Part shown: piece after piece, positions 13,946 to 30,693 of the stretch
Layout of the letters: each line of letters starts with the position of its first letter
Position numbering within the stretch: position 1 is the stretch's first letter
Origin: Alicyclobacillus pomorum DSM 14955
GTDB taxonomy: Bacteria > Bacillota > Bacilli > Alicyclobacillales > Alicyclobacillaceae
Length of the DNA stretch: 45,239 nucleotides
Direction: 5' to 3'
Assembly: GCF_000472905.1 (NCBI RefSeq)
Contig: NZ_AXAR01000005.1
Location: forward strand, 1 to 45,239
Position numbers and translations under genes: made by a program
The notes under the pieces: model-generated
What the model saw: only the letters and a program-made list of their open reading frames with translations
What the model was told of the DNA's origin: nothing
The model's database searches: none

Positions 13946-14314
13946 GTGTTCAATCGCATCCAAGTCCGTTTGACATTGCTTACTGTAGGGATTTTTTTAG
14001 CGCTCTACATGGTTTCCTCGTTTGCTATATACGGAATCCTGCGGCAAGTCGTTCTGCATGCTGTTGATGTGGAGTTATCCGGCATTGTTCGCCAGGTGGA
14101 GCATCAGAAACCCCCTGCTGTGATGAAATACCTACCATCCGGTATCTACGCCATTGTCGTCAAGCCAGGCCAGTTCGTCTCCAATGCTACACCTGATTTG
14201 GCCGCCAAATTGCAGATCCTCATTCAGCGACATCAGTATCGGCACTTTACGGCCAACTTGAATCAACAAGGTGCGGTCTACCGCGTGAATTTCGTGCCAT
14301 TACAAACGTTGTGA
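13946..14314 (+). CDS. Sensor histidine kinase, N-terminal sensor part (split gene)
   Basis: A 122-aa frame with a GTG start and TAGGAG 9 nt upstream. It carries the first membrane helix (LTLLTVGIFLALYMVSSFAIYGI) and an extracytoplasmic region with the fold pattern of kinase sensor loops, ending VYRVNFVPLQTL before a TGA. In intact relatives the next words are a VGYI segment, and that is exactly how the following overlapping frame begins. Adding one A in the CAAACG run (near 14303-14307) would join the two frames. This is therefore probably half of one kinase. Confidence 0.75.
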   Translation: MFNRIQVRLTLLTVGIFLALYMVSSFAIYGILRQVVLHAVDVELSGIVRQVEHQKPPAVMKYLPSGIYAIVVKPGQFVSNATPDLAAKLQILIQRHQYRHFTANLNQQGAVYRVNFVPLQTL

Positions 14315-15195
14315 AGCAAAACCAGGTTGGGTATATCGTCACCGCCACCAACGTAGCTCGAGAAATGGCTGTCTTACACCGCCTCCAAAGCGTGCTGCTT
14401 CGAGTTGGCGCTTTGGGCACGCTCATTGCTATGTTGGCTGGGTTTTTCCTCGCTGGGCGGGCTATGCGCCCCATTCGCCAGGCTTGGCAACGACAGATCC
14501 AATTCGTTGCAGATGCTTCCCACGAATTGCGAACGCCATTGGCTGTCATTCAATCCAACTTAGACATTGTATTGGATCACTCGGATCAATCCGTTTTGGA
14601 TAACTTGGAGTGGATTAACAACGCGCATCGCGAGGCACGGCGACTAGCCAAACTTGTGGAGGATTTGTTAACACTTGCGCGCAGCGATTCTCAGACCGCT
14701 ACGGTACAACGACAGCCGGTAGATCTTACGAAACTTGTACAGCATGTGGTGGAACTGTTTGAGACCATCGCGATGGCGAAACGGTTGGAACTGGAAGCGG
14801 ATCTGCCTGGGGAAATCCATATCATGGGCGATCCCGATAGACTGCATCAGCTTTTCGTGATTTTGTTGGACAACGCATGCAAGTACACCCCTGAAGGTGG
14901 TAAGGTGCGAGTCACCGTTGCGTTAGAGAGGAACATAGCTGTGGTACAGATAGAGGATACGGGTCAAGGCATCGCGGAGGCGGATGTGAACCGGGTCTTT
15001 GAGCGGTTTTTCCGGGCGGATGAGGCGCGTCATCGGGGGACTGGCGGTGTGGGCCTAGGCCTCGCCATTGCCAAGTGGATTGTCGAGGCACACCAAGGAA
15101 AAATCATGTTGCAAAGCAAACTTGGAGAAGGTACGCGAGTGACAGTGAAGCTGCCGGTTCGCTCGGCTGAACATGCACAGCGGCCGTCGCTGTAA
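14311..15195 (+). CDS. Sensor histidine kinase, catalytic part (split gene)
   Basis: A 294-aa frame starting at a GTG that overlaps the TGA of the previous frame (GTGA). It holds the second membrane helix (VGALGTLIAMLAGFFLAGRAM), a shortened HAMP-like linker (RPIRQAW), the HisKA H-box ASHELRTPL with His71, N-box with Asn188 (DNACKYTPEGG), and the G-boxes EDTGQGI and GGVGLGLAIAK. It would autophosphorylate and pass phosphate to the regulator upstream. No own ribosome site is evident, which again suggests it is normally fused to the frame before it. Confidence 0.85.
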   Translation: MKQNQVGYIVTATNVAREMAVLHRLQSVLLRVGALGTLIAMLAGFFLAGRAMRPIRQAWQRQIQFVADASHELRTPLAVIQSNLDIVLDHSDQSVLDNLEWINNAHREARRLAKLVEDLLTLARSDSQTATVQRQPVDLTKLVQHVVELFETIAMAKRLELEADLPGEIHIMGDPDRLHQLFVILLDNACKYTPEGGKVRVTVALERNIAVVQIEDTGQGIAEADVNRVFERFFRADEARHRGTGGVGLGLAIAKWIVEAHQGKIMLQSKLGEGTRVTVKLPVRSAEHAQRPSL

Positions 15196-16339: not shown

Positions 16340-16762
16340 ATGGAAGTGTTTACAGACGAGTGGGCGAAGACGTGGCAGGTCGAATTGAACAAAAGTGAGC
16401 AATACCGGACTTCTGCGACGACATGGGAGTGGCCCCTTGCACTCAAAATGCAGCGAGATCCATCTGTCGGGGTGCCGGAGGATAGGGCGATTCTGTTGGA
16501 TCTGTATCACGGCCAGTGCAGAGATGCGAGGGTAGTGTCCACTGAAGACCTGAGTTCTGCGACGTACGTCATCAGTGCGGATCCATATACGTGGAAACAG
16601 ATTTTTGAAAGAAAACTGGAGCCGATCTCATCTATTATGCGAGGCAAACTGGCCCTTGAAAAAGGAAACATGTCCACCTTGTCACAGTACGTGATGGCTG
16701 CCAAGCACTTGGTCGAATGTGCCCTCAGCGCAGGCGGAGAGATGCCGGAGGGATTGAAATGA
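16340..16762 (+). CDS. SCP2 sterol-carrier-like protein
   Basis: A 140-aa cytosolic protein with the SCP2 pattern: a beta-sheet with a hydrophobic tunnel, then WKQIFERKLEPISSIMRGKLALEKG, matching the W...M.GKL.L.G signature near the C-terminus (quoted in part: MRGKLALEKG), and a final helix. SCP2 domains bind sterols, fatty acyl chains or acyl-CoA. GAGGAGG 7 nt upstream supports the ATG. Its stop overlaps the start of the alcohol dehydrogenase gene (ATGA), so the two are translationally coupled. It opens a long co-directional run including R2lox and aldehyde dehydrogenase. Confidence 0.8.
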   Translation: MEVFTDEWAKTWQVELNKSEQYRTSATTWEWPLALKMQRDPSVGVPEDRAILLDLYHGQCRDARVVSTEDLSSATYVISADPYTWKQIFERKLEPISSIMRGKLALEKGNMSTLSQYVMAAKHLVECALSAGGEMPEGLK

Positions 16763-17802
16763 AAGCGGTAACGTTTCAGGGTGTGCAAAACATTCAGGTC
16801 GAGCGGGTGGATGATCCATCCATTCTGGATCCAGCGGACGCCATTCTTCGCATCACCACGGCAGCCATTTGCGGCTCCGATTTGCACCTTTATCATGGTC
16901 AGATTCCTGGAATGCTGCCGGGGATGGTCATCGGACACGAATACGTTGGTGTGGTAGAAGAGGTTGGGGCGCAGGTTCGCGCCTTTCGTCCGGGCGACCG
17001 GGTTGTGGGCACCTTTCATGTCGGTTGTGGAACGTGCCTGTCGTGTAGGAGAGGTGATTTCCACCAATGTCAGTCCGGCGGTGTGTTAGGTTACGGAATG
17101 GCGTTTGGAAATCTAAACGGAACGCAAGCCGAGTACGCACGGATTCCGTACGCCGATTATTCGCTGCGCAAGGTACCGGACGGGTTGACCGACGAACAAG
17201 CATTGTTCTCCGGGGACATTTTGACGACTGCATACGGTGCGGTGATGAACAGCGGTTTGAAACCTGGTGAAACTGTGGCTGTCATCGGGTGTGGACCGGT
17301 AGGCATGATGGCGATTCAGAGCGCATTTGCGCTCGGTGCCGCGCGTGTCATTGCCATCGACTTGATGAGGGAGCGAACCGAGATGGCCGCTGCAGTGGGA
17401 GCCATTCCGGTATGGTCCGCACACGTCAATCCTGTCTCGCGCATCAATGAACTGACGCATGGCGAAGGTGTCGACGTTGCGATTGAGGCGGTGGGTGGCT
17501 CCGCGACCATTCGCCTGGCGTTCGATTTGGTACGCGGGGGCGGAAGGATCTCGGCGATAGGGGTAACGTCGGAAGAGACGTTCGAGTTTCCACTCGTGAC
17601 TAGTTTGGCGAAGGACATTACGTTCCGAGTGGGCGTTGCGAATATCCACCGAGACATCGATACCACGTTGGCCCTCGTACAGTCGGGGCGGATTGATCCA
17701 ACAGTGGTGGTGAGTCACAGGCTGCCGCTAGACCAGGCCGCTGAAGGATATCGCCTGTTTGCGAGCAGAGAGGCCAGTAAAGTTCTCTTTACCGTCGACT
17801 GA
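16759..17802 (+). CDS. Zinc-dependent alcohol dehydrogenase (MDR family)
   Basis: A 347-aa medium-chain dehydrogenase/reductase, oxidising an alcohol to an aldehyde or ketone with NAD(P). The catalytic zinc ligands are visible as Cys38 (AAICGSD) and His60/Glu61 (GHEYVG). The structural zinc site is Cys90, Cys93, Cys96 and Cys104. The Rossmann motif is VIGCGPVG. The start at 16759 is set by GGAGGG 6 nt upstream and the ATGA overlap with the SCP2-like gene; the open frame extends upstream without a ribosome site. Its place between SCP2 and R2lox suggests a hydrophobic alcohol as substrate. Confidence 0.93.
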   Translation: MKAVTFQGVQNIQVERVDDPSILDPADAILRITTAAICGSDLHLYHGQIPGMLPGMVIGHEYVGVVEEVGAQVRAFRPGDRVVGTFHVGCGTCLSCRRGDFHQCQSGGVLGYGMAFGNLNGTQAEYARIPYADYSLRKVPDGLTDEQALFSGDILTTAYGAVMNSGLKPGETVAVIGCGPVGMMAIQSAFALGAARVIAIDLMRERTEMAAAVGAIPVWSAHVNPVSRINELTHGEGVDVAIEAVGGSATIRLAFDLVRGGGRISAIGVTSEETFEFPLVTSLAKDITFRVGVANIHRDIDTTLALVQSGRIDPTVVVSHRLPLDQAAEGYRLFASREASKVLFTVD

Positions 17803-17903
17803 ACGGGCACCTCTCAAACGTCAGGATAGGCAGCGTTTGGATGCAAAATTTCTTTACCAGCAGTTAAATTGTTTAATTATTCAGTCTAATGGAGGGGTAC
17901 GGA

Positions 17904-18797
17904 ATGCGTGTGACGCAAACGACAACTGAACGAGGATTGAATCAATCGATACTGCCAATGCGCCTGTATCAGAAGGCGAAAAAGTTGGGCATCTGGGATC
18001 CACGGGATATTGACCTAACGCAAGATAAGGAAGATTGGAAGGGATTGTCGGACGCGGAACAGCAATATGTTCTCAGGTTGTGCTCCATGTTTCAGGCCGG
18101 TGAGGAAGCGGTCACAAGGGATCTTCTGCCGCTCGTCCGCGTGATCTCGTTGGAAGGTCGACTCGAAGAAGAAATGTATCTGACGACATTCTTGTGGGAA
18201 GAGGCAAAACACACGGAAATGTTTCGCTTATTCCTGGACGATGTCGTGGGGGTAAAACGGGATATCACGGAGTTTCACGGTGAGAACTACAAGAAAATCT
18301 TTTACGAGTTTCTGCCGGAAGCGATGGAGGCATTGATTCAAGATCAGTCACCCGAGGCGCAGGCCAAAGCATCGGTCACCTATAACATGATTGTCGAGGG
18401 GACGCTGGCAGAGACCGGTTACCACGCTTTCTACACCTCGTTGAAGCGGCTGAACAAGATGCCCGGTTTGATATCTGCTATCGATTATTTAAAGAAGGAT
18501 GAATCTCGCCACATTGGCTATGGAACCTATCTTTTATCCCGTCTCATCTGTGAGAACGAAAACATCTGGGATGTGGTCAACAGCCACATGGAGACATTGT
18601 TGCCGTACGCCATCGGGGTTGTGAACGAAATCATTACTCCAGATGAAAACATGCCCTTTGGTTTAAACATTGACGAGTTTATCAACTTTGCAATGAAACA
18701 GTTCCAATTCCGGATGGATACGCTGGAACGAGCGCGGACGCGAAACGTGGACGAAATCTACCTCATCAGCGAAGAGTCTGTAGGAGTTCTGCGATAA
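17904..18797 (+). CDS. R2-like ligand-binding oxidase (R2lox)
   Basis: A 297-aa ferritin-like Mn/Fe protein. The residues known in R2lox are all present with near-constant offset: metal ligands Glu67, Glu100, His103, Glu165, Glu200 and His203, and the crosslink pair Val70 and Tyr160. The Val-Tyr pair separates R2lox from ribonucleotide reductase R2, with which it is often confused, and no R1 gene is nearby. R2lox binds a long-chain fatty-acid-like ligand and activates O2; its natural substrate is unknown. I chose the ATG at 17904 because GGAGGGG lies 6 nt upstream, inside the longer frame that starts at 17889. An inverted repeat (CAAACG/CGTTTG) at 17816-17839 separates it from the alcohol dehydrogenase. 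Confidence 0.92.
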   Translation: MRVTQTTTERGLNQSILPMRLYQKAKKLGIWDPRDIDLTQDKEDWKGLSDAEQQYVLRLCSMFQAGEEAVTRDLLPLVRVISLEGRLEEEMYLTTFLWEEAKHTEMFRLFLDDVVGVKRDITEFHGENYKKIFYEFLPEAMEALIQDQSPEAQAKASVTYNMIVEGTLAETGYHAFYTSLKRLNKMPGLISAIDYLKKDESRHIGYGTYLLSRLICENENIWDVVNSHMETLLPYAIGVVNEIITPDENMPFGLNIDEFINFAMKQFQFRMDTLERARTRNVDEIYLISEESVGVLR

Positions 18798-18870
18798 GGG
18801 CGTGATGGACTGTGCTTTGCGGACTCTGCCACGTGGATAGGTGTGGACATTGGAAATGGAGGAACGTGAT

Positions 18871-20376
18871 TTGACAAGTATATTTTCGACCACGTTGGAA
18901 TCAGCGTTTGTCAGCGATACCGTCCGAAAGTTTTTGCTAGACGGCCCCAAAAAGTTGTTGATTGGCGGAAAATGGGTCGACGGGCAGTTAGGACGCACGT
19001 TTCACAGTATCGATCCAGCCACTGGACAGCCGCTTGCCGAGATTTGCGAAGCCGGGGAAGAAGACGTCCATCTGGCAGTACAGGCTGCACGTACCGCTTT
19101 GGATGGTCCGTGGCGAAATGTGAGTCCGGCTGAACGGGGGCGCTTGCTTTGGCAATTAGCTGACTTGATTGAACAGCATAGTGAGGAACTCAGCCAACTA
19201 GAATCCTTGGATACCGGCAAGCCGGTGACCGAAACGTCGTTCGTGGACATCGCCTTTACGGTGGACCATTTCCGGTACTTTGCCGGATGGACGACCAAGA
19301 TCACCGGGGAAACGTTACCCGTGTCATTTCCAGGCAGTTACCTGACATACACGCGGCGCGAGCCGATTGGTGTGGTGGGCGCCATCGTTCCGTGGAACTT
19401 TCCGTTGATGATTACGTCTTGGAAGCTAGCCCCTGCATTGGCGTGTGGAAACACGGTTGTCCTGAAACCGTCGGAGATGACGCCGCTTACCGCCATTCGC
19501 TTGGGTGAGCTGGTGATGGAAGCAGGCTTCCCGCCCGGTGTGGTCAACATCGTCCCCGGCTACGGACAATCTGCTGGCGCAGCGTTGTCGAAGCATCCAG
19601 GTGTCGACAAAATTACGTTCACCGGTTCGACTCGCGTTGGAAGAGACATTTTACAAAACTCTTCTACGAATTTTAAACGCGTCTCCCTGGAGCTAGGGGG
19701 TAAGTCACCGAACATCGTGTTTCCGGATGCTGATATGGACGCGGTTGCGGGTGGAATCATGATGAGCATTTTCTTCAACCAAGGAGAGGTGTGTTGCGCC
19801 GGTTCGAGACTCTATTTGCATAAGCGGATATATGACCAGGTGCTTGCAAAAGTTTGCGAACGCGCGCAAGCCATTCGTCAAGGCGTCGGAGTCGATCCGT
19901 CGACGCAAATGGGGCCATTGGTGAGCGAAGCGCACATGCAAAGAGTACTGAGCTATATCGAGAAAGGAAGGGCGGAAGGCGGCAAAGTTCTCACCGGTGG
20001 GACAAAGAACTCGGACCAAGGATACTTTGTCCAGCCGACGGTTCTGGAGGCAACCGATGATATGTTTGTTGCGCGCGAGGAGATTTTTGGCCCGGTTTTG
20101 GCCGTGATGCCCTTCGAAGATGTATCGGATGTGGTGCAGCGAGCGAATCACACCGAGTACGGTTTGGCAGCCGGAGTGTGGTCAAGCGATGTGAAAACGG
20201 CGTTGCAAGTGGCTCACGCGCTGAAAGCCGGCACAGTCTGGGTAAACGGTTACAGTCTGTTGGATCCGGTGAGCCCGTGGGGCGGATTTAAACAAAGCGG
20301 CATTGGCCGAGAAATGGGTCGATATGCACTGGAGCACTTTACGGAAGTGAAAAGCGTGTGGCTGAATCTCACGTGA
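18871..20376 (+). CDS. Aldehyde dehydrogenase (NAD(P)-dependent)
   Basis: A 501-aa ALDH-superfamily enzyme oxidising an aldehyde to the acid. Visible landmarks are PWNFPL, the NAD-binding GSTRVGR, general base Glu274 (LELGGKSP), catalytic Cys308 (GEVCCAGSR) and EEIFGPV near the C-terminus. I chose the TTG at 18871 because GGAGGA lies 7 nt upstream; in-frame GTG 18841 and ATG 18856 are alternatives without good spacing. It follows R2lox by 73 bp and would complete an oxidation series with the alcohol dehydrogenase. Its stop codon touches a copy of the intergenic motif. Confidence 0.94.
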   Translation: MTSIFSTTLESAFVSDTVRKFLLDGPKKLLIGGKWVDGQLGRTFHSIDPATGQPLAEICEAGEEDVHLAVQAARTALDGPWRNVSPAERGRLLWQLADLIEQHSEELSQLESLDTGKPVTETSFVDIAFTVDHFRYFAGWTTKITGETLPVSFPGSYLTYTRREPIGVVGAIVPWNFPLMITSWKLAPALACGNTVVLKPSEMTPLTAIRLGELVMEAGFPPGVVNIVPGYGQSAGAALSKHPGVDKITFTGSTRVGRDILQNSSTNFKRVSLELGGKSPNIVFPDADMDAVAGGIMMSIFFNQGEVCCAGSRLYLHKRIYDQVLAKVCERAQAIRQGVGVDPSTQMGPLVSEAHMQRVLSYIEKGRAEGGKVLTGGTKNSDQGYFVQPTVLEATDDMFVAREEIFGPVLAVMPFEDVSDVVQRANHTEYGLAAGVWSSDVKTALQVAHALKAGTVWVNGYSLLDPVSPWGGFKQSGIGREMGRYALEHFTEVKSVWLNLT

Positions 20377-20391
20377 ACGATTTGCAAAACG
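20376..20391 (+). repeat. Copy of the GATTTGCAAA intergenic motif
   Basis: AACGATTTGCAAAACG overlaps the last base of the aldehyde dehydrogenase stop codon and differs from the consensus at one position. Confidence 0.6.
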
Positions 20392-20437
20392 ACCTGAGGT
20401 GCCGAGAATCCCACTTGATGCAGAAGGAGGCGAGACA

Positions 20438-22135
20438 ATGATGGGTACGGCGGTTCAAACCGAAGAGCGTCCAAACTTGGACCAATCCGAACAGAACATT
20501 GAACGGCTGCGGTCAAAGATCACCAAACGGCAACGGTTACGAAAAATCATCACCACAGTGAGTAAGCATGGCATCATGCACCTATTGGCAGACCGAAGCC
20601 GCGACGATGTAAAAAAGCAGCGTTTACTTGGTGAGCGCTTGAGAAAAGCGTTCGAGGAACTCGGCCCGACCTTCATCAAACTGGGGCAAGTCATTATGAC
20701 GCGCCAGGAGTTACTGCCTGAGGCAGTTACGACGGAACTCGCCAAGCTGCTGGATGACGTCACTCCAATGCCCTTTGAATACATGGCCGTATACCTCGAA
20801 CGCGAACTGCCGGATGGCCTTCAAACGTTCAAGTGGATTGACACGGATCCGATTGGATCCGCGTCACTGGCGCAGGTTTACAAGGCGGAATTACAAGATG
20901 GGAGAACCGTTGCAGTCAAGGTTGTACGTCCTGTTGTCGATAAGTTGTTTCAGGTCGATATCTCGGTCATTAAACGTTTGGTTCGGCGAGTCGAGAAACT
21001 GTTACCTGACAACTTAGCTGCCGCACTGGATCTCAGCGGTTTAATTTCAGATTATTACAGCAGTTCTGTCGAAGAGTTGGATATGCGGACGGAACGTCGC
21101 TCGATGGACGAACACAGAGTTTTCATGGACGAATTTGAGACGATTGACGTACCAGAGGTGTACTTTGCTTCTGAACACGTCCTCGTCATGCAATATATCG
21201 ATGGGTGGAATCTCAAGGAGTTCCCGGTCGACTTTCTCACGTTTGAAGAGCGGCTGGAACGCATGGTGGACCTCGCGCACTACTACATTAAAACCTTTGT
21301 GCAGGGGTACTATCACGCGGACCCGCACGGCTCCAACATCATGATTGATCGCTCTTCAAAGAAGGCGTATATCATCGACTGGGGCATGGTCGGTCGCATG
21401 GATGCCATACACACCGAAGCGATTTTTCGCATGCTCTTGCATACACGGGTCAATCAAGCCGAGGATGCGGCAGAAGCTGCCTTGGATTTGTTTCAGCCGA
21501 CGAAATTCACGGATCGGGTGAATTTGAAAGACCAATTGCGGTCGCTCTTCATTCATTACGTAACGAGTAATCAAGCGAGTAAATACAACTGGGGCAATCT
21601 GATTTTGAGTCTGATTTTGATTGGCATGAAAAACTACTGTCGTGTTCCCACGGGACTCGCTTTGTGGGCGAAAGGATTTTCGGCAGCCGAAGGGACTGCG
21701 CGCTGGCTCTGTCCGGAGATATCCTACCACACGGTGGTTGAAACAGCGGATGTTCAGTTACTCCGGCAATGGTTTCAACGACGCTTCAATTACCGGGCGA
21801 GCGCTTCACTTCTTGCTGAATCCACGAAATTGGTTACCTCACTACCACGGCGTCTCAACATGATTCTTGAACATCTGGCATGGAATGACATGACGTTCAC
21901 CGTGGAAAACAGGGTTTCGCCGAGCACATTAAAATCCTTTCAAAAAATGGTGAATCGATTGGTGATGGCTGGAATCGTTATTGCGTTGCTCGTGGCCGGT
22001 TCGTTGTTAATGAGCGTTGCGTTACGGACGCCAAACGGTGGGGCTGTTGAAGCGATGTCGTCAGCGATGTTGTGGTCAGGCGTTATCCTGGGTGCGTTCA
22101 CACTGTGGAGCGTTTTTCGTTCCAGGCGTACTTGA
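20438..22135 (+). CDS. ABC1/UbiB/ADCK-family atypical kinase
   Basis: A 565-aa protein-kinase-like ATPase. The family KxGQ motif is LGPTFIKLGQ, the nucleotide-binding lysine lies in VAVKVVRP, the catalytic loop is YHADPHGSN and the metal-binding motif IIDWGMVG. Two membrane helices close the C-terminus (LVMAGIVIALLVAGSLL and MLWSGVILGAFTLW). Members support isoprenoid-quinone and lipid metabolism at membranes. The ATG at 20438 has AAGGAGG 7 nt upstream. It continues the direction of the R2lox cluster and may share in handling a lipid-like substrate, which is inference from position. Confidence 0.92.
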   Translation: MMGTAVQTEERPNLDQSEQNIERLRSKITKRQRLRKIITTVSKHGIMHLLADRSRDDVKKQRLLGERLRKAFEELGPTFIKLGQVIMTRQELLPEAVTTELAKLLDDVTPMPFEYMAVYLERELPDGLQTFKWIDTDPIGSASLAQVYKAELQDGRTVAVKVVRPVVDKLFQVDISVIKRLVRRVEKLLPDNLAAALDLSGLISDYYSSSVEELDMRTERRSMDEHRVFMDEFETIDVPEVYFASEHVLVMQYIDGWNLKEFPVDFLTFEERLERMVDLAHYYIKTFVQGYYHADPHGSNIMIDRSSKKAYIIDWGMVGRMDAIHTEAIFRMLLHTRVNQAEDAAEAALDLFQPTKFTDRVNLKDQLRSLFIHYVTSNQASKYNWGNLILSLILIGMKNYCRVPTGLALWAKGFSAAEGTARWLCPEISYHTVVETADVQLLRQWFQRRFNYRASASLLAESTKLVTSLPRRLNMILEHLAWNDMTFTVENRVSPSTLKSFQKMVNRLVMAGIVIALLVAGSLLMSVALRTPNGGAVEAMSSAMLWSGVILGAFTLWSVFRSRRT

Positions 22136-22236
22136 CAGATGGTTAGAAGTTGATGGGGCAGGGCTTTTGTCGTCAGGCCATCCATCAAAAAGAAGCGTTT
22201 GAGCGAACGAAATGGTGTTTGAGGGAGGAATGCGAG

Positions 22237-22785
22237 ATGAAGTACCGGTTTCGGGTGTTCATCGGTGCGCTTCTGGGCGCTTTCGCGATGGTTGGGGCTA
22301 TGTTAGCTGGCGTTCTCAATGGTGGTGTGGCGCTCGCGTTACCTCTGGCTGGGGTGGGAACCTTTACGATTGAGGCGAGTCAAATCAATATTACCCACTT
22401 TCGGTTGTTGCCTCGGATTGGCCAGCTCTCTTCAGACGGATCCAACGTTCCAGAAACGCAGGTGTCATTGGATTGTACGATTGAAAACTTGAAACTGTAT
22501 AAGGACGTACCCGTGCCGGGCGGCGGAAAGATTCGTGTGCTGATTCAGACGAATAAGGAGGTTCATGCGAACGGTATGGTCATGAACATGGCTGCATTGC
22601 AGGCGCTGGCAGCATTTAAGCAACTGACGATTGGCCAAAACGGAGAGGCTTCGAGCGCTGTACAAGAATTTTCGTTATCAGCACCTCAACTTACCTTGGT
22701 GAATCCGCACATCCAAACGACTTACCTATATACCAACAGCATTACATTGCCAGGGTTGTCAGTGAGTGTATCGCCAACACATTAA
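22237..22785 (+). CDS. DUF6230 family secreted/anchored protein
   Basis: A 182-aa protein. An N-terminal membrane segment (about residues 8-35, rich in Gly/Ala/Leu) is followed by GTFTIEASQI and a beta-rich domain with repeated strand patterns (QLSSDG, VSLDCTIENLKLY, QLTIGQNGE). This matches my memory of DUF6230, a family mostly seen in Actinobacteria beside DUF6114, some members of which are annotated as cholesterol esterase. The ATG at 22237 is set by GGGAGG about 7 nt upstream. The next gene is DUF6114-like, which strengthens the call. Confidence 0.7.
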   Translation: MKYRFRVFIGALLGAFAMVGAMLAGVLNGGVALALPLAGVGTFTIEASQINITHFRLLPRIGQLSSDGSNVPETQVSLDCTIENLKLYKDVPVPGGGKIRVLIQTNKEVHANGMVMNMAALQALAAFKQLTIGQNGEASSAVQEFSLSAPQLTLVNPHIQTTYLYTNSITLPGLSVSVSPTH

Positions 22786-22793
22786 CTTCAGTC

Positions 22794-22859
22794 AGCGATT
22801 TTCAAAACGCGAGCAACAACTCTTCGTGCTGAACTATTTCAGAGGAATTTGCACATCGG
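22794..22859. repeat. Inverted pair of the GATTTGCAAA motif (66-bp element)
   Basis: AGCGATTTTCAAAACG at 22794-22809 is paired with the degraded inverted copy AATTTGCACATCGG at 22846-22859. The right arm shares AGAGGAATTT with the element at 16028-16080, and the loop holds GTGCTGAAC, also present in the element at 9837-10024. It lies between the DUF6230 and DUF6114 genes. Confidence 0.6.
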
Positions 22860-22913
22860 AGAAGTGTTTACGAGATGCAGTTGAAAACGCTTCCGTGAGA
22901 AAGGGGTATTCGG

Positions 22914-23429
22914 ATGCCGCAGGTGTCATTTCAAAGCTCCAGACCGCAACCACAGTTGCAATCTCCTCAGTCAGAATTACCCAAAGCTCGTCGTAGACCT
23001 CGATTGGGTCTATCATGCATCACATTATCTGGGGTTGCGACGTTGTGGATCCCTGTCAACCTCTACTGGTTAGCGTTTGTGTCTGGAAGCTTTGCCTCCG
23101 CAGGACTTTTATTTGGCACCTTGATTCTAGCCTGTGCCATACTGGGGTGGCTGTTCCCTCAAAACACGAGAATCATCGGAGTATTTTCCATCATTCTGTC
23201 GGTGTTTTCGATAATTGGTGCGCTGGGTGGACTGGTCGTAGGAGCATTATTGGGGATTGTCGGAGGTGCTCTGTGTATCGCTTGGGCACCGGCAACGAGT
23301 TCAGCGAGTAAAGCATCAGTAAACCCAAAGCGAACAAAGCGCGCGAAAGACAGGGCTGCTTCAGCAAGAACTCGTGAACAGTCAAAGGAGAAGGAGCCAT
23401 CGAAAAACGCGTGGGAAAAATGGTTTTAG
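22914..23429 (+). CDS. DUF6114 family membrane protein
   Basis: A 171-aa protein with a polar Gln/Pro/Ser-rich N-terminus, three to four membrane helices between about residues 30 and 125, and a Lys/Arg/Ser-rich tail. The segment GGLVVGALLGIVGGALCIAWAP is the part that best matches DUF6114 (final helix with GGxLGxxGGxLAFAW pattern). AAAGGGG about 9 nt before the ATG supports the start. The pair DUF6230-DUF6114 is preserved here as in Actinobacteria. The function is unknown. Confidence 0.72.
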   Translation: MPQVSFQSSRPQPQLQSPQSELPKARRRPRLGLSCITLSGVATLWIPVNLYWLAFVSGSFASAGLLFGTLILACAILGWLFPQNTRIIGVFSIILSVFSIIGALGGLVVGALLGIVGGALCIAWAPATSSASKASVNPKRTKRAKDRAASARTREQSKEKEPSKNAWEKWF

Positions 23430-23448
23430 GACTCTCGGAGGGATGCCC

Positions 23449-24498
23449 ATGTCCTGGCATCGCAAAGGTTACAGAAAGCTTTTTTTAACAGGCGCCTTCG
23501 TATTGACTTGGCTGGCTGTTGCCTTGATATGGCCCAATACCGCCTCTGCGACGACTCAGTCCATGGTGACTCGCTCTGTGTCAGACATGCCAAACGATAA
23601 GGGGACTGTTCATGCTTCTCCAGCTGCCAATCCATCGTCTTTTTACATCCATGCAGACAAGATTCAGGCTCAAGGCGCCTTTTTAGAACCCATTTCTACA
23701 TCTGGGAAACTCGGCGTTGAATTGCGGTTTTCAGAATTGGTGCTCTATGGGATGAAACTTGTAAAGAACACGTCCATTTCCGGGAGTACGGACGCAATCG
23801 AAATTCAATCCACGGGACCAGTTCGCCTGAACAACGTGACCGTTGATGTAGTTGGTCTGGGATTTCGCGGAGTTGGCGTAAAGTTGAACGTACTGTTGCC
23901 TGATTTGGTACTGACCGACGTCAACCTGATGGCGACCCGATTGATTTCAGATGAGGCGAATATTCCGGGGTTGTCACTCCATGTCAATGAACAACCCATT
24001 GGAGTGAATACAGGCAATATGGTCGATTTGACTCAGATCCCGTTGTCCGGAACGTTGGCACAAGTAGTTTCACAGTTGGATTCCCTCTTGAACGGTGCGG
24101 ATCCAAGAGAAGTTCAACCAGAGGCCAATCATACGGACCCCACTCAAGTTCAACAAGGAGAAAATCATCAATTCAAAGTACCCCCACTGATGGGGACTGT
24201 GTCGTCGCCCACAGGGATTTTGACAAATGGGAACTTGCAGAGTGTGCTCGGGAGTGCGTTATCAAGTACCGCCAAGGACTTAGGATCATTAAACTCTGGT
24301 TCTAAAGCAACCCAACTTAAAAATACTGTCTCTAGAACTCAATCTGAAAATTCGGTAACCGAAAGCCCAGCCACTTCACCGTCAACCCGTTCCAGCGGTT
24401 CATCGACCGAGCCAACGAGTCAAGGACCAGGGTTGTTGGGTTCAGTTATACAAGCAATGTCCCCTCTGCTTCGAGATTTTTTTGGAAGTGGCCCATAG
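23449..24498 (+). CDS. Secreted protein with a Ser/Thr/Pro-rich tail, linked to DUF6230/DUF6114
   Basis: A 349-aa exported protein. The signal peptide (residues about 8-32) ends TASATTQ. The middle (about 60-200) is beta-rich with a pattern like the DUF6230 domain two genes upstream (SFYIHADKIQAQGAFLEP; LVLYGMKLVKN; a late PGLSLHV compared with PGLSVSV there), so the two may be distant paralogues. The last 120 residues are Ser/Thr/Gln/Pro-rich, suggesting a wall-spanning or surface linker. GGAGGG 6 nt before the ATG at 23449 fixes the start; an ATG at 23443 abuts the ribosome site. It begins 19 bp after the DUF6114 stop. Confidence 0.68.
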   Translation: MSWHRKGYRKLFLTGAFVLTWLAVALIWPNTASATTQSMVTRSVSDMPNDKGTVHASPAANPSSFYIHADKIQAQGAFLEPISTSGKLGVELRFSELVLYGMKLVKNTSISGSTDAIEIQSTGPVRLNNVTVDVVGLGFRGVGVKLNVLLPDLVLTDVNLMATRLISDEANIPGLSLHVNEQPIGVNTGNMVDLTQIPLSGTLAQVVSQLDSLLNGADPREVQPEANHTDPTQVQQGENHQFKVPPLMGTVSSPTGILTNGNLQSVLGSALSSTAKDLGSLNSGSKATQLKNTVSRTQSENSVTESPATSPSTRSSGSSTEPTSQGPGLLGSVIQAMSPLLRDFFGSGP

Positions 24499-24548
24499 GC
24501 TGTCTGCCGCGCTACGCAGTTTCACTTTTGCATAAGGAGGAACATACA

Positions 24549-24950
24549 TTGGCCCCGGACCATCAGGACGAAGCGTTAACCATGTCACAGCGCATAGAGG
24601 CATTTTACCGGCAAAGTGGTGGACCGAACAACCCTGACATTGATCGCCTTTTGGAAAAGCATTTGCTTTATGGAAAAGATCATGGGATGCCGGGTTACAA
24701 GGAAACCATCGAGGATGCTTTCATCGATACAGTCGTGAACGATCCCGCGTTATTGATTCTTTTTCAGCGCTTTCAAAGATTACGTCATCAAAACACGAAC
24801 CTCAATGACGGGAAAAGTGTATCCTTCAACGAAGGATTGGAATCAGTTCATAAAAAGTTGGCAGAGTTGCAAGCTGATCTCGAGTTGCTCCGGCTGGAAG
24901 TGAAAGATATCAGTAATGAGTTGGCACATCGGCGACAGAAAGTGGAGTGA
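24549..24950 (+). CDS. Hypothetical cytosolic protein with a C-terminal coiled coil
   Basis: A 133-aa protein with no signal or membrane segment. The N-terminal half is polar and helical (MSQRIEAFYRQ; DHGMPGYKE). The last 35 residues form a clear heptad coiled coil (VHKKLAELQADLELLRLEV). The TTG at 24549 has AAGGAGG 8 nt upstream, whereas the longer frame overlaps that ribosome site. It closes the co-directional run, and a terminator follows. I recognise no family. Confidence 0.65.
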   Translation: MAPDHQDEALTMSQRIEAFYRQSGGPNNPDIDRLLEKHLLYGKDHGMPGYKETIEDAFIDTVVNDPALLILFQRFQRLRHQNTNLNDGKSVSFNEGLESVHKKLAELQADLELLRLEVKDISNELAHRRQKVE

Positions 24951-24970
24951 CGAGTGATAAGTGCTTGAAT

Positions 24971-24999
24971 GAGCGGCGGGGGGAAACCCGTCGCTCTTT
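24971..24999 (+). terminator. Terminator closing the R2lox-DUF6114 gene run
   Basis: GAGCGGCGGG pairs with CCCGTCGCTC (one G-T pair) around GGGAAA, followed by TTTA. Confidence 0.75.
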
Positions 25000-25151
25000 A
25001 GACATGGATACCCCTAAAGAGAAGAGAGCTCATTTGATGTCTAGCTGGAGTACGGAGAGAGGACACAACAGACAGAAACAAACTTTATATTTCGAAATTT
25101 TTGACAATATGTAAATTCGAATTGAGGATCTGTGGATTTGGGGGAGATTCA

Positions 25152-26684
25152 ATGCGAAATGTCTGCTCCGAGATCAAGTTGCCGTTAATATCCACAAAGA
25201 TTCGAGAATGTTTGGCAAAACAACTACTTTCAAACGCTCGCCATTGCGAAATGCAGTTCGGGATTCGTTTACAAGAGTTGCGTATGAATTCCCGGGAAGC
25301 GCGGGCGTCGGAGGACGTTTTTTCATCATTAATCGGCTTGTGTGAATTGTGGGCCGTGGACGAATCAGCCGTGGTTTCTCAGTTTCGCTCTGTCATCGCG
25401 TGTCTGCAGGAACATATCACTCTATCGAATATCCTATTTATTCTATCGACTTTCGAAGAATTCGTTGTTGCAGTCGTGCGGCTAAACATGGATGAATCAG
25501 ATATCGCGATTGCTTTGCAGTGGGTACATGCGCTCATATTGCAGCTCTCCCTTGCCGCGGTGGCGCAACTCACGTCGGTTACACCGACAGGTCGATTCGC
25601 GACAATGACCAGCATGGAACAGACGACCTTAACAGCAATGTTGAATTACATGGGGGTCATGGGGATCTGGGACTGGGCGGCGATAGTCACGTCACACCTA
25701 AAAAAACTGTCCATTGTCGATGTGGCCGTATGGAACAAAGATGAACAAGTCTGGTACCCCGCCAACATGGATACACAGATAACAGAACAAGTGTACGAAC
25801 GCTGCATATCAGGCCGGCACACGTTCAAGATACCCGTCGCAGGCAACCTTACCTTCATTGTGAGCGGGGAAATGAACGCTCAATCGGAACTCTTATTGAA
25901 TCAATGTGTTCGGTGGCTCAACATCACTTTGCAGCTGGCGAAGCACATGAACGATGACGGTGGATACTCCGAACTGTGCCTGCAGAGGGCACTCCTTCAC
26001 CTTGACGAAACCATACTCACAGCTAAGCAACACGACCGTTTTTCGCATGCAATGAGAGAACTTTGCCAGTTTACAGGGTTTTCTAGGAGTGCCTTGCTTG
26101 CCTATGCTCCGGTGACGAAGACATTCGAAGGTTTCGAGGCATATAACATTCCCGTGCAAGACATTCGGAGAGTCAAGGAAATGGAATGGAGCGTCCCTGA
26201 GATATCTCATACATTGCAGACTTTGGAACCATATCACATTACAGATGCTCACGGAATGATTCCAGATCATCACGTAAAATTCTTCGGCCTCACTTCTCTT
26301 TTGGTTGTTCCATTCGTAAATCCAGATAAGTATCCACTTGGCCTGGTTCTACTGGATCACCAGGGAAGTCCGTTTACTCCGGATGGACGAACGGTGCAAG
26401 CCGCGCAAACGATAATCAATCGAATGGCTAAGGTGAGCACCATGCTTGCTGATGAAGCTCACAATTTGAGTAAAGCCGGAGAGAGCTCGTCAGGGATCAG
26501 CAACAATGAACTGAGAATCCTTCAGCTGATTGCAAACGGATTGGATACCAAGGACATTGCAAGAACACTATATCTGAGTGAATATACAGTGAATGACTAT
26601 GTGAAGTCTATCTTGAGAAAATTCGGTGCCAAGAACCGATCTCATGCAGTGGCGGTAGCTTTGCGAAAAGGGCTGATTCAGTAA
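25152..26684 (+). CDS. LuxR-type transcriptional regulator with GAF-like domain
   Basis: A 510-aa regulator. The N-terminal 250 residues are helical without a clear match. A GAF-like sensor domain spans about 280-420 (FTGFSRSALLAYAPVTKTFEG to TSLLVVPFVN). The C-terminal 65 residues are a LuxR/NarL helix-turn-helix (NNELRILQLIANGLDTKDIA, then LYLSEYTVNDYVKSILRKF). GGGGGAG 5 nt before the ATG at 25152 decides the start. It lies between the lipid-oxidation run and the PHA locus and could control either. The effector is unknown. Confidence 0.85.
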   Translation: MRNVCSEIKLPLISTKIRECLAKQLLSNARHCEMQFGIRLQELRMNSREARASEDVFSSLIGLCELWAVDESAVVSQFRSVIACLQEHITLSNILFILSTFEEFVVAVVRLNMDESDIAIALQWVHALILQLSLAAVAQLTSVTPTGRFATMTSMEQTTLTAMLNYMGVMGIWDWAAIVTSHLKKLSIVDVAVWNKDEQVWYPANMDTQITEQVYERCISGRHTFKIPVAGNLTFIVSGEMNAQSELLLNQCVRWLNITLQLAKHMNDDGGYSELCLQRALLHLDETILTAKQHDRFSHAMRELCQFTGFSRSALLAYAPVTKTFEGFEAYNIPVQDIRRVKEMEWSVPEISHTLQTLEPYHITDAHGMIPDHHVKFFGLTSLLVVPFVNPDKYPLGLVLLDHQGSPFTPDGRTVQAAQTIINRMAKVSTMLADEAHNLSKAGESSSGISNNELRILQLIANGLDTKDIARTLYLSEYTVNDYVKSILRKFGAKNRSHAVAVALRKGLIQ

Positions 26685-27781: not shown

Positions 27782-27927
27782 ATTATCCGAAAATATAACT
27801 TTTCTAATTCTAATAATATCTTATACTGAGTATGTGCATGCGCCACTCCAAACATTCGTAGTGACTCTTCGTATCTGCTTATTCGCAGGTGCTAAGACAT
27901 AAATAGGAGTCAGTGGAGGGAATTCCA

Positions 27928-28200
27928 ATGGAAAAAGTGACTGAGTACATCATGGAACAGTCGAAAAAGAACACCGTGCAACTCTTTCAGTTGATGGAAA
28001 ACGCTGTGACTTCCTCAGTGGCGATGGTGAACGAGGCCCAAAGTGAGGCGCAGCAAATCACCAGCCGTCTTACGGAGAAAGGGAAGGAGCAGTTTGTGGC
28101 GCAGCTGGCAAACCTCCAAGTGCGATTGATTGAGGCCCAAACAGAGTTTCAGGATCAGTTCCGCAATTTGATGCAACTGTTCAAGCAGGAAGGGAAATAG
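27928..28200 (+). CDS. Small phasin-like protein of the PHA operon
   Basis: A 90-aa fully helical, Gln/Glu-rich protein with heptad character throughout (QSKKNTVQLFQLMENAV; LANLQVRLIEAQTEF). Such sequences coat PHA granules or join synthase subunits. TGGAGGG 7 nt before the ATG at 27928 decides the start. The stop codon directly abuts the phaR start, indicating tight coupling. It is shorter than usual phasins. A role on granule surfaces is inferred from context. Confidence 0.65.
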   Translation: MEKVTEYIMEQSKKNTVQLFQLMENAVTSSVAMVNEAQSEAQQITSRLTEKGKEQFVAQLANLQVRLIEAQTEFQDQFRNLMQLFKQEGK

Positions 28201-28692
28201 GTGACTGCCATGCAAGCAAAATACTTAGACCCGTTCTCTGTTTGGAAGTCTTTTTATGGTGAAGTGGAGCCGAAACTATCTGAAGCGATGCAAAAGTGGC
28301 TGGAAAGTGAAGAGTATGCTGCATTTTCCGGACAATTGCTGAGTGCCACACTACAAGTGGAACAAAGCATTCTGAAGAATGTCGAACACATGCTGCAAGC
28401 CTACAACATACCAACTGTGAAAGACTTCGCTCGCCTAGGTGAGTTAATCGTTGGAGTCGAGAGCAAGATTGACCAGCTGGACGAACGTTTGGCTCGGTTG
28501 GAGCAACTCGCGTTAAGCAACGCTGATGTGCGAGAGCAGCTTGAAGCAATCACAGCGCAGCTGGAATCAATCGGTCAGCTCCAGCTGCCAGAGGCATCTG
28601 ACTCTGACAAGAACGCAACGGCCACGAAAAACCGCAGACGCGGGCAGAGAGCACAAGAGGGTGCGGACGAATCGAAGTCTGAACTCGTGTGA
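28201..28692 (+). CDS. phaR: PHA synthase subunit PhaR (PhaE/PhaR-like)
   Basis: A 163-aa helical protein. The N-terminal part DPFSVWKSFYGEVEPKLSEA, the SGQLLSATL segment and NIPTVKDFARLGELIVGVES resemble PhaR of Bacillus class IV synthases, which pairs with PhaC to form the active enzyme. A coiled coil (KIDQLDERLARLEQLA) and a basic, disordered tail follow. The GTG at 28201 has GGAAGGG 6 nt upstream; an ATG at 28210 is possible. It lies in the order phaR-phaB-phaC as in Bacillus. Confidence 0.72.
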   Translation: MTAMQAKYLDPFSVWKSFYGEVEPKLSEAMQKWLESEEYAAFSGQLLSATLQVEQSILKNVEHMLQAYNIPTVKDFARLGELIVGVESKIDQLDERLARLEQLALSNADVREQLEAITAQLESIGQLQLPEASDSDKNATATKNRRRGQRAQEGADESKSELV

Positions 28693-28757
28693 ACACATAG
28701 TGAAGAGTCAGTTCTTTTGATACAAACACATCACGTGATACTTGGAGGGACGAACCT

Positions 28758-29531
28758 ATGGCAATTTCGGTAAATGAACTGGCTACGCACAAAATTCTAC
28801 AGGATCGCGTTGTATTAGTGACAGGCGGTTCTCGTGGCATTGGCGCAGAAATCGCCAAAGAACTGGCGGCCCAGGGCGCAACGGTCGCTATCAACTACGT
28901 GTCCAATGCGGATCGGGCGCAGGAAGTGGTGCGTGAAATCGAGTCGTACAACGCAAAGGTTACGGCGGTACAAGGGGATGTCGCCAATCCGGAGGCCATG
29001 AAAAAGGTCTATGAAGAGGTTATGGAGACCTACGGGAAGATTGACATCCTCATCAACAACGCGGGCATTACGCGCGACGCGAAATTTGTGAATATGACTG
29101 AAGAGCAATGGAACCAAGTCATCACCACCAATATGAACAGCATCTTCCACCTCACCAAACTGGTTCTTCCAAACATGATTGAGCAAAACTATGGTCGAAT
29201 TGTCAACATTTCGTCCATCATTGGTCAGGCTGGTGGGTTCGGTCAGACCAACTACTCGGCTGCAAAGGCGGGGATGATTGGCTTCACAAAATCCCTTGCG
29301 CTGGAAGTGGCACGCTACAACATCACGGTCAACTGTGTCTGCCCGGGTTACACCTTCACCGATATGGTGGCGGCTGTACCGGAAAAGGTTCAAGAAAAGA
29401 TCATCGCTAAAATTCCGTTGGGCCGCTTCGGGACGCCGAAGGAAGTGGCCAAGGCTGTCCGCTTCTTGGTCGTTGACGGTGACTACATCACTGGCCAGAG
29501 CATCAACGTAAACGGCGGCATGTACATGTAA
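28758..29531 (+). CDS. phaB: Acetoacetyl-CoA reductase PhaB (SDR family)
   Basis: A 257-aa short-chain dehydrogenase/reductase making (R)-3-hydroxyacyl-CoA for PHA synthase, using NAD(P)H. Visible motifs are the cofactor site TGGSRGIG, NNAG, catalytic Ser (NISSII), Tyr-x-x-x-Lys (YSAAKAG) and the C-terminal NVNGGMYM. A 15-residue N-terminal extension precedes the fold. TTGGAGGG 8 nt upstream supports the ATG. Its position between phaR and phaC supports PhaB over the very similar FabG. Confidence 0.88.
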   Translation: MAISVNELATHKILQDRVVLVTGGSRGIGAEIAKELAAQGATVAINYVSNADRAQEVVREIESYNAKVTAVQGDVANPEAMKKVYEEVMETYGKIDILINNAGITRDAKFVNMTEEQWNQVITTNMNSIFHLTKLVLPNMIEQNYGRIVNISSIIGQAGGFGQTNYSAAKAGMIGFTKSLALEVARYNITVNCVCPGYTFTDMVAAVPEKVQEKIIAKIPLGRFGTPKEVAKAVRFLVVDGDYITGQSINVNGGMYM

Positions 29532-29544
29532 CAACGGCAATGTG

Positions 29545-29572
29545 CCCCTGGTCAGTGAACCAGGGGTATTTT
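29545..29572 (+). terminator. Hairpin between phaB and phaC (possible attenuator)
   Basis: A perfect 8-bp stem (CCCCTGGT / ACCAGGGG) with a CAGTGA loop, followed by TATTTTAT, ends just before the phaC ribosome site (GGAGGTG). Confidence 0.65.
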
Positions 29573-29586
29573 ATGGAGGTGAAACA

Positions 29587-30693
29587 ATGACCGCGCATGG
29601 AAATTGGGCAGAGGCCTGGAAGCAAATGATAGATGGCGAACAAGGCGCCGAACAGAAGAACATCCCATTCGTTCAATGGAGTGAACGGCAGCGCAAAATA
29701 CTGGAAGTTATCACGAAAGCGGAACCGGAGATGGGTTTGACCCCGAAGGAAATCATCTGGCGGAAAAATAAGAGCAAGCTCTACCACTTCACGCCAGTAG
29801 ACGCGAAGGTCACGAAAAAGACGCCCATTCTCATGGTATACGCGATGATCAACAAGCCCTACATCCTTGATGTCGAGCCGGGTAACTCTTTCGTAGAGTA
29901 TTTGCTGCAAGATGGTTTTGACGTCTACATGCTGGATTGGGGTGACGCGGGGATTGAGGATTCACACAATGGATTTGCCGAGTACATCCTCGATTATCTG
30001 GCAAAAGCAGTAGAGCGTGTGTGCCTGCATAGCGGCCAGGAGTCCATCAACCTGTTTTCCTACTGCATGGGTGGCACGATGGGCACAATGTACACCACAC
30101 TCTTCCCGGAACGGGTAAAAAACCTGGTGGTTCTCGCTGCACCTATCGATTTCCGGCATGCTGTGCTGTACAACAAATGGCTCGACGAAAAGTATTTCGA
30201 TGTTGACAAAGTGGTGGAGACGTTTGGCAACGTGCCTGCCCACATGATTGACCTTGGGAACAAAATGCTGAAACCGATGAGCAATTTCATTAATCCGTGG
30301 GTGCAACTGTATGAAAAAGTGGACAATGAAAAATTTGTGCACAATTGGCGCCTCATAAACAAGTGGGTGAACGACGGCACTGACTTTCCAGGGCAGACCT
30401 ATCGCGAATGGATTCGAGACTTCTATCAGCAAAACAAGCTCATTAAAGGCGAGATTGTACTGCGCGGTCGGCGCGTGGATCTCTCAAGGATTGAGTGCCC
30501 AGTGCTGATTGTGACGGCAGAGCACGACCATATTGCACCCTGCGACCAGACGCGTGCCTTGTTTGACTACATCAGCAGCACGGACAAACAGGAGAACAAC
30601 TATCCGGTCGGCCACGTCAGTCTCGTCTTCGGTGGTACGGCGAAAAAGAGAGTGTATCCGGACACCTCTGCTTGGCTCGCCGCACGGGATTAA
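29587..30693 (+). CDS. phaC: PHA synthase catalytic subunit PhaC (class III/IV)
   Basis: A 368-aa alpha/beta-hydrolase-fold polymerase that joins (R)-3-hydroxyacyl-CoA units into granule polyester. The triad is Cys160, Asp314 (AEHDH) and His343 (VGHVSLVFGG). The lipase-like box reads S-Y-C-M-G rather than the usual G-x-C-x-G. The length fits class III/IV, which need PhaE or PhaR, the latter encoded upstream. GGAGGTG 6 nt before the ATG at 29587 decides the start. The conserved Trp/Tyr-rich C-terminal half (FPGQTYREWIRDFYQQN) is typical. Confidence 0.93.
   Translation: MTAHGNWAEAWKQMIDGEQGAEQKNIPFVQWSERQRKILEVITKAEPEMGLTPKEIIWRKNKSKLYHFTPVDAKVTKKTPILMVYAMINKPYILDVEPGNSFVEYLLQDGFDVYMLDWGDAGIEDSHNGFAEYILDYLAKAVERVCLHSGQESINLFSYCMGGTMGTMYTTLFPERVKNLVVLAAPIDFRHAVLYNKWLDEKYFDVDKVVETFGNVPAHMIDLGNKMLKPMSNFINPWVQLYEKVDNEKFVHNWRLINKWVNDGTDFPGQTYREWIRDFYQQNKLIKGEIVLRGRRVDLSRIECPVLIVTAEHDHIAPCDQTRALFDYISSTDKQENNYPVGHVSLVFGGTAKKRVYPDTSAWLAARD

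Follow-up and report, generated by a model that had tools for sequence, protein, structure and literature searches.

The R2lox-UbiB-DUF6230 gene set of Alicyclobacillus pomorum and its proposed role in the capture and oxidation of alkanes

Among the closest described systems are two from Geobacillus. Kato and co-workers sequenced peptides of two proteins, P21 and P16, from Geobacillus thermoleovorans B23; according to the available parts of their report, both are located in the membrane fraction and are induced by alkanes, the more so the longer the chain, while palmitic acid, tributyrin and trimyristin gave no induction, and the N-termini of both resemble a Streptomyces 'cholesterol esterase' (PMC2676291). 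P21 adjoins GkR2loxI, an R2lox reported as an alkane monooxygenase, a claim of moderate strength on the accessible sections of its source, which also describe its co-purification with hydroxy fatty acids (PMC10867098). We have analyzed 45,239 nucleotides of Alicyclobacillus pomorum DSM 14955 (contig NZ_AXAR01000005.1, positions 1 to 45,239; hereafter the window, whose positions we use), in which nine genes at 16340-24950 join R2lox and a UbiB/ABC1 atypical kinase with DUF6230 and DUF6114, two Pfam families of unknown function, and with two unnamed families that we call Sec and CC4. Fetched loci carry L-numbers and genomes G-numbers, G000 being the organism's own (3.4 Mb). Our reading, to which we give a probability of about 0.62, is that this operon, with 20438-24950 as its surface and membrane half, captures and terminally oxidizes long-chain alkanes or similar alkyl-chain compounds.

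P21, P16 and the metal site of R2lox

P21 and P16 belong to the DUF6230 family. Four P21 peptides, AFPLSGVGGFTISADLI, IDVVVTGGNVSGQNLK, TDNPLNVIDLSAPSLTLDK and PSLNTHYMSAGSITIPSMK, match the DUF6230 protein of a Geobacillus-like locus (L254), where the DUF6230 gene lies beside R2lox, at 16/17, 16/16, 19/19 and 18/19 residues, a total of 69/71; a DUF6230 profile from which L254 was left out gives that protein 165.6 bits. The start of P16, VPISGVGEF, is found at 9/9 residues in the DUF6230 proteins of L255 and L257, and an internal P16 peptide matches at 12/18. The P21 and P16 sequences begin at the position matching the point where the signal peptide ends, so a DUF6230 protein in its mature form probably lacks a membrane helix, though P21 and P16 are found in the membrane fraction. 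In the open-access literature, with subscription papers and preprints outside our coverage, DUF6230 appeared only in a promoter table, in a source available in part; there was no mention of DUF6114, no record linking a ligand-binding oxidase with UbiB, and no statement joining these families or this set.

The window's R2lox scores at most 64.8 bits on ribonucleotide reductase R2 models and is intact at its metal site. The metal ligands and Tyr-Val pair of GkR2loxI are given, in the accessible sections of the source, as E69, V72, E102, H105, Y162, E167, E202 and H205 (PMC10867098); the window's enzyme retains all eight of these cofactor and cross-link residues, as E72, V75, E105, H108, Y165, E170, E205 and H208, residues counted by hand on an alignment to 4hr0 whose entry numbering was taken as shifted by 14. 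A second R2lox gene, of the other clade, lies ~33 kb downstream in the organism's own genome (G000:C31:51631-52488; L086:9650-10516).

The operon and the tailed DUF6230 homologue

The features of the operon and its 3' flank are as follows.

16340..16762, + strand: SCP2-domain protein (carrier of hydrophobic ligands), opening the operon; PF02036, 26.9 bits, cut-off 21.3
16759..17802, + strand: zinc-dependent alcohol dehydrogenase (Zn-ADH); PF08240/PF00107
17889..18797, + strand: R2lox, Mn/Fe oxidase; NF006202, 386 bits, cut-off 315
18841..20376, + strand: aldehyde dehydrogenase (ALDH) of the module-type clade; PF00171, 612 bits
20438..22135, + strand: UbiB/ABC1 atypical kinase with a C-terminal membrane segment, R2lox-linked subfamily; PF03109, 150.8 bits, cut-off 22.9
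22237..22785, + strand: DUF6230 protein with signal peptide and beta domain, P21/P16 family; PF19741, 44.4 bits, cut-off 27.5
22914..23429, + strand: DUF6114 membrane protein; PF19609, 72.0 bits, cut-off 27.9
23449..24498, + strand: Sec3, with signal peptide, a beta domain resembling DUF6230 (residues ~61-182) and a long tail of low confidence that has a terminal helix
24549..24950, + strand: CC4, small soluble protein with conserved core and coiled-coil end, TTG start; A6 alignment
24971..24999, + strand: hairpin, probable terminator with a weak U-run; folding energy against shuffles
25101..26684, + strand: GAF-LuxR regulator, start perhaps a later ATG; PF01590 and PF00196

The initial annotation, made from the sequence alone, had described the five co-directional genes from UbiB to CC4 as a continuation of an R2lox group, and the two DUF families had been named in it; these genes do follow one another on the + strand, separated by intergenic gaps of 19-128 bases, and both DUF products score above their family thresholds. 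What it missed is that the operon begins at 16340 with SCP2. The run SCP2, ADH, R2lox, ALDH, UbiB, DUF6230, DUF6114, Sec3, CC4 is uninterrupted and shows no strand change, and the end of the SCP2 gene overlaps the start of the Zn-ADH gene by four bases; we therefore take 16340-24950 as the operon unit. Shine-Dalgarno-like purine runs can be read in the bases upstream of UbiB, DUF6230, Sec3 and CC4, and DUF6114 has three transmembrane (TM)-like segments at the threshold used. The proposed terminator stands in part: the hairpin is stable (-23.5 kcal/mol on folding 24962-25010, z -5.1, with 0/200 shuffles equally stable), but its U-run, TTTAG, is short and a terminator consensus scan does not list it, so that a terminator function is likely only.

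After the nine-gene unit comes the GAF-LuxR gene. Of 42 distinct DUF6230 loci, the window counted, 30 have a match to it in the fetched stretch, a figure to be read with the commonness of LuxR genes in mind, as chance level was not controlled. In 11 of 12 loci that have no R2lox in their stretch (L096, L255, L258-L263, L266-L269), a LuxR match lies 0.8-2 kb from DUF6230, L261 being the one without. Farther out, the window holds a sensor kinase in two overlapping frames (13946-14314 and 14311-15195), possibly a frameshift or a split gene, and, 3 kb past the operon, a polyhydroxyalkanoate-like set (27913-30693) of an SDR reductase, a PhaC_N-type polymerase and two small proteins that reach the cut-off of no family.

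Sec3 is a tailed DUF6230 homologue, as had been suggested for the gene at 23449. We call it a homologue and not a member because the homology is seen by tuned profiles only: at E 1 neither Pfam, PF19741 included, nor NCBIfam yields a family for Sec3. A DUF6230 profile made without Sec3 retrieves it in the organism's own genome (E 1.6e-6), and 13 Sec proteins, the window's Sec3 among them, are returned by a DUF6230 profile; in the other direction, a three-sequence Sec profile returns 27 of 43 DUF6230 proteins, missing the window's own at that threshold, and a 25-row Sec profile does recover it. With larger profiles the window pair scores 29.8 bits against 8.4 for the best decoy in one direction and 35.3 against 6.7 in the other (2000 shuffles each). 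The hhalign probability against DUF6230 is 98 for the tailed set and 95 and 86 for two sets of small proteins; it is 37 for the Sec-like proteins of L101 and L102, whose kinship to DUF6230 is therefore doubtful. An orphan status for Sec3, to which a single-sequence search had pointed (2/59 genomes, one match being Sec3 itself and the other weak and with stops), was rejected once profiles found homologues.

Predicted structures agree with this kinship. In the AlphaFold2 models of the DUF6230 protein and Sec3, which were compared without superposition, one TM-like helix precedes strands in one-to-one order: 43-58 (with a short break), 74-83, 86-93, 97-104, 109-128 (and 131-134), 145-165, 168-170 and 175-181 in the former, and 65-84, 87-100, 103-110, 113-121, 125-140, 150-166, 169-171 and 175-180 in the latter. 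With the same succession of strands in both, the products of 22237 and 23449 give no indication of unrelated folds. The mean predicted local distance difference test score is 84.9 for DUF6230 and 66.6 for the whole of Sec3, which is good in the beta domain only, the tail being of low confidence except for a terminal helix of about 56. The tail of one Sec3 homologue (L206:2275-3531, - strand) ends, at residues 337-415, in a PTS-HPr-like domain (PF00381, 55.4 bits); inspected by eye, this tail showed no active-site histidine of the HPr type. Similar tails are seen in the alignment for L210, L223, L261, L262 and L266-L269, the domain scan having covered L206 alone.

The window's UbiB, to judge from its sequence, is a distinct R2lox-linked subfamily. 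Among 32 UbiB rows (29 different sequences, window included), KxGQ is kept in 32/32, DWG replaces DFG in 31/32, and GSAS stands at the A-rich loop in 29/32; the UbiB equivalog model TIGR01982 gives 244.4 bits, under its cut-off of 487.55, and a UbiB scan of genome contigs returned at least five close relatives. CC4 has no family over cut-off and no TM-like segment, and its core, R-x-x-A-F-x-R-Q-S-G-G-P, is invariant in the A6 alignment. The CC4 gene lies directly 3' of UbiB in L104, L105, L204, L208 and others, DUF or Sec genes separate the two in the window, L205, L206 and L271, and CC4 accompanies the R2lox/UbiB block across the class. The initial annotation had CC4 as an intracellular partner; an intracellular place fits the sequence, and the partner is more probably UbiB than the secreted proteins.

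Conservation, co-occurrence and descent

The window's exact nine-gene order, SCP2-ADH-R2lox-ALDH-UbiB-DUF6230-DUF6114-Sec-CC4, is found in two loci from other Bacilli families (L206 and L271). A third, L209, has the same order with CC4 just beyond the end of its stretch and a single insert between ALDH and UbiB, an S-layer-homology/DUF11 surface protein (L209:4075-6555, - strand). Since the same genes stand in the same order in other families, the block is not a chance assembly. Reshuffled sets occur in L099, L108/L264, L205, L210, L217, L223, L254 and L256, some with other ADH types or with no ADH, and Alicyclobacillus montanus (L105) shows the same genes. Genes 54-66% identical to SCP2 occur in nine module loci (L099, L205, L206, L209, L210, L217, L221, L223 and L271), and Zn-ADH shows 59-75% identity in 10 other module loci. 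DUF6114 lies near DUF6230 in 39 of 42 distinct loci (43 rows with a duplicate contig included), a third protein, secreted and resembling DUF6230, is present in 36/42 (three of these, L100-L102, at just 23-27 bits), and the order DUF6230-DUF6114-Sec recurs in 24/42; this sample is biased, as some loci were picked for having R2lox and the Sec profile was partly built from these proteins. DUF6230 with DUF6114 nearby occurs in ten Bacilli families besides the window's own.

Within the organism's order (59 genomes, with R2lox called at E 1e-20), DUF6114 is over cut-off in 9 genomes, DUF6230 in 8 and R2lox in 23; in the ninth DUF6114 genome (G003), DUF6230 is present by blastp. All nine have their DUF genes at most ~9 kb from R2lox; in G013, where a contig break intervenes, that distance is deduced from the two contig ends, L024 and L091. 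In seven genomes of the window's own family (G002, G003, G009, G011, G013, G015 and G035; loci L021, L022, L024/L091 and L025-L028), a lipase-like hydrolase gene stands between R2lox and DUF6114, and DUF6230 comes next, with two small secreted proteins that resemble it. One stretch with a DUF6114 match below cut-off was fetched (L029), and no module gene was found in it.

Across the class (398 genomes drawn; R2lox at E 1e-50, DUF6230 by profile A2, CC4 by profile A6), R2lox is found in 63 genomes, DUF6230 in 33 and CC4 in 31. DUF6230 and R2lox occur together in 27 genomes against 5.2 expected (hypergeometric p 5e-19), and 30 of the 31 CC4 genomes have R2lox (p 2e-26), the lone exception being a weak match with two stops; as the genomes are related, these p-values serve as a guide only. 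Outside the window's own family, 18/24 DUF6230 genomes (p 4e-13) and 19/20 CC4 genomes have R2lox. CC4 is present somewhere in 26 of the 33 DUF6230 genomes, and in 20/33 an R2lox lies in the stretch around DUF6230 (G013 counted via its split contigs).

The initial annotation had entertained a transferred module; a recent horizontal transfer of the whole block finds no support in trees or GC content. The window's UbiB is sister to its own family's UbiBs (support 93/94), R2lox joins own-family sequences, if weakly (84, quick tree), and GC content is even (0.48-0.53 across the block, within a window range of 0.45-0.58). DUF6230 alone falls outside, its grouping with the family's other members being rejected (approximately unbiased test, p 0.001) on long branches, a placement for which paralogy would be as good a reason. 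The window's ALDH lies within a clade of module-type ALDHs from other families, and the nine-row clade has an SH-aLRT support of 99 (quick tree). Transfer explains the data no better than an old module that has undergone loss and shuffling.

Parts of the set also stand beside catabolic genes or outside the Bacilli. In Thermus sp. 2.9 (L107), UbiB-CC4 sits in a run with CoA ligase, hydroxyacyl-CoA dehydrogenase, thiolase and acyl-CoA dehydrogenase genes; two unknown proteins precede UbiB-CC4 in this beta-oxidation run (L107:6124-8157). In the tree, the Thermus UbiB pairs, on a long branch, with the UbiB of a distant Bacillota genome (100/99), which suggests transfer across phyla. In L108, R2lox, UbiB, CC4 and the DUF trio lie near an SCP2-ligase-acyl-CoA dehydrogenase run. 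On a plasmid of the haloarchaeal genus Natronococcus, DUF6230 adjoins DUF6114 (123.9 and 127.0 bits), and ~10 kb away lies an R2lox-like gene that at E 1e-5 matches R2lox models alone, all under their cut-offs (coordinates for pair and gene, L184:6305-7465 and L274:1450-2502). The Sec profile found no Sec protein at this locus; its third gene, a candidate by eye, was dropped on that account. For actinobacterial neighborhoods, plasmid searches with DUF6114 and DUF6230 gave nothing or Natronococcus alone, and the single Streptomyces plasmid UbiB inspected sits among lasso-peptide and nonribosomal peptide synthetase genes.

Proposed function, rivals and known systems

The identity of P21 and P16, with the R2lox literature, leads us to narrow the 'envelope-lipid' module first proposed to one for alkanes or alkyl chains. 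We propose that secreted DUF6230, its tailed homologue Sec3 and the membrane protein DUF6114 would bind a hydrophobic substrate in the envelope and hand it to the membrane; that the membrane-tethered UbiB ATPase, with soluble CC4, would lift it from the bilayer to the cytosolic enzymes, as models of COQ8/UbiB suggest; that SCP2 would carry it; and that R2lox would hydroxylate it, the first step reported for a distant R2lox, with Zn-ADH and ALDH converting the alcohol to a fatty acid and the GAF-LuxR regulator presumably controlling the set. The succession alkane, alcohol, aldehyde, acid is established alkane-pathway chemistry, and an alkane would be the presumed natural substrate of the window's branch. 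Oxidized chains could be stored via the polyhydroxyalkanoate-like set.

More broadly, and more tentatively, single-membrane bacteria and some haloarchaea may possess a dedicated uptake of solid or liquid alkanes, with an envelope capture complex of secreted DUF6230, its tailed form and DUF6114, and an R2lox-specific UbiB-CC4 ATPase that draws the alkane from the membrane and feeds the Mn/Fe oxygenase, an extension we would hold at somewhat less than even odds. If so, this would be, to our knowledge, the first UbiB role that concerns neither quinones nor isoprenoid lipids, and uptake would take a different route from that of the outer-membrane FadL/AlkL type. The proposal connects four families, two of them Pfam families of unknown function and two unnamed, with proteins whose alkane induction is published. 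It gives R2lox, an enzyme with a long-standing question over its substrate, named partners, and it predicts how single-membrane bacteria acquire alkanes and which task other than quinone synthesis a UbiB-type ATPase has.

Several points weigh against this proposal. The model case is itself unproven: in the accessible parts of the two sources, disruption of P21/P16 did not succeed (PMC2676291), and alkane loss with GkR2loxI was seen in crude lysate, with ligand mutations lowering activity only slightly or partly (PMC10867098). The window's R2lox (NF006202) is of another subfamily than the L254 enzyme (NF006200), to which it is 43% identical. It need not be the sole alkane enzyme of its genome, an idea we set aside, since there is a strong TIGR03860 match (582.6 bits, cut-off 279.7), in a group that we take to contain LadA; two PF00487 matches may be desaturases or AlkB. 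Six of the 33 DUF6230 genomes have no R2lox at the threshold used, and 13/33 have none in the fetched stretch around DUF6230, so that the surface set may serve other substrates. No solved fold was matched by the DUF6230 or Sec3 model, Foldseek giving nothing at E <= 0.001 and the best VIA Z being 2.9 and 2.8, respectively. The parts assigned to UbiB and CC4 are themselves inferred, and the lipase-like hydrolase of seven own-family genomes hints at esters.

The rival that survives best keeps the architecture and changes the substrate, which would be fatty acids, esters of the wax or glyceride type, or alkyl lipids of another kind. It would account for that hydrolase, for SCP2 and AMP-ligase genes as neighbors, and for the hydroxy fatty acids co-purified with GkR2loxI; yet palmitic acid, tributyrin and trimyristin failed to induce P21 and P16, and an ADH and an ALDH beside an oxygenase make an alkane-type sequence of steps, and we consider this rival doubtful. 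Rather less probable is that two modules are merely adjacent, a DUF6230-DUF6114-Sec-LuxR surface module with a function of its own and an R2lox-UbiB-CC4 module. Each half does stand alone, R2lox-UbiB-CC4 in L204, L207, L208, L211, L212 and L219, whose stretches hold no DUF genes, and the DUF trio with LuxR in L262, L263 and L266-L269, whose stretches hold no R2lox, UbiB or CC4; but most DUF6230 genomes also hold R2lox (27/33) and CC4 (26/33), a common regulator family accompanies them, and one fused order recurs in more than one family. The general reading of the initial annotation, a module that acts on envelope lipids or quinones belonging to the cell itself, to modify or protect them, with UbiB at work in quinone biology, as UbiB membership, the secreted and membrane proteins, and the lipid binding of which R2lox is capable according to the accessible sections of its source (PMC10867098) might suggest, is improbable given the sub-cut-off, R2lox-linked UbiB, the catabolic neighbors in L107 and L108, and the patchiness of DUF6230 (33/398 genomes).

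Set beside known systems, the proposed capture and oxidation of alkyl chains by the operon finds partial parallels. The top three VIA rows for Sec3 (SMP, CETP and BPI; Z 2.8, 2.7 and 2.4), all of them TULIP lipid-transfer proteins, score far too low for a shared fold to be claimed; TULIP proteins are absent from the VIA rows of DUF6230, and the predicted Sec3 domain is without their long core helix. UbiB/COQ8 atypical kinases share with the window's UbiB the ABC1 domain and the KxGQ motif, bacterial UbiB has the same C-terminal membrane segment, and the nearest solved chain is 5yjz, which we take to be Rv3197; the window's kinase differs in its DWG and GSAS motifs, its own putative small partner CC4 and its sub-cut-off equivalog score. 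P21 and P16, in the available parts of their report, resemble DUF6230 proteins in their signal peptide, a measured mature start at an xPxxGxG stretch and their place in the membrane fraction (PMC2676291), whereas the window's DUF6230 protein lies on a separate branch of the family, with 31% identity to its counterpart in L254 and 30% to that in L255. A further parallel is the G. kaustophilus cluster GK2769-GK2782 with GkR2loxI, where R2lox, ALDH, ADH and P21 stand together, though with the other R2lox subfamily and a different gene order; the accessible sections of its account do not name UbiB, DUF6114 or the tailed protein as parts (PMC10867098). To that same R2lox/ALDH/ADH/P21 set, the Geobacillus-like locus L254 adds UbiB, CC4, DUF6114, Sec and LuxR.

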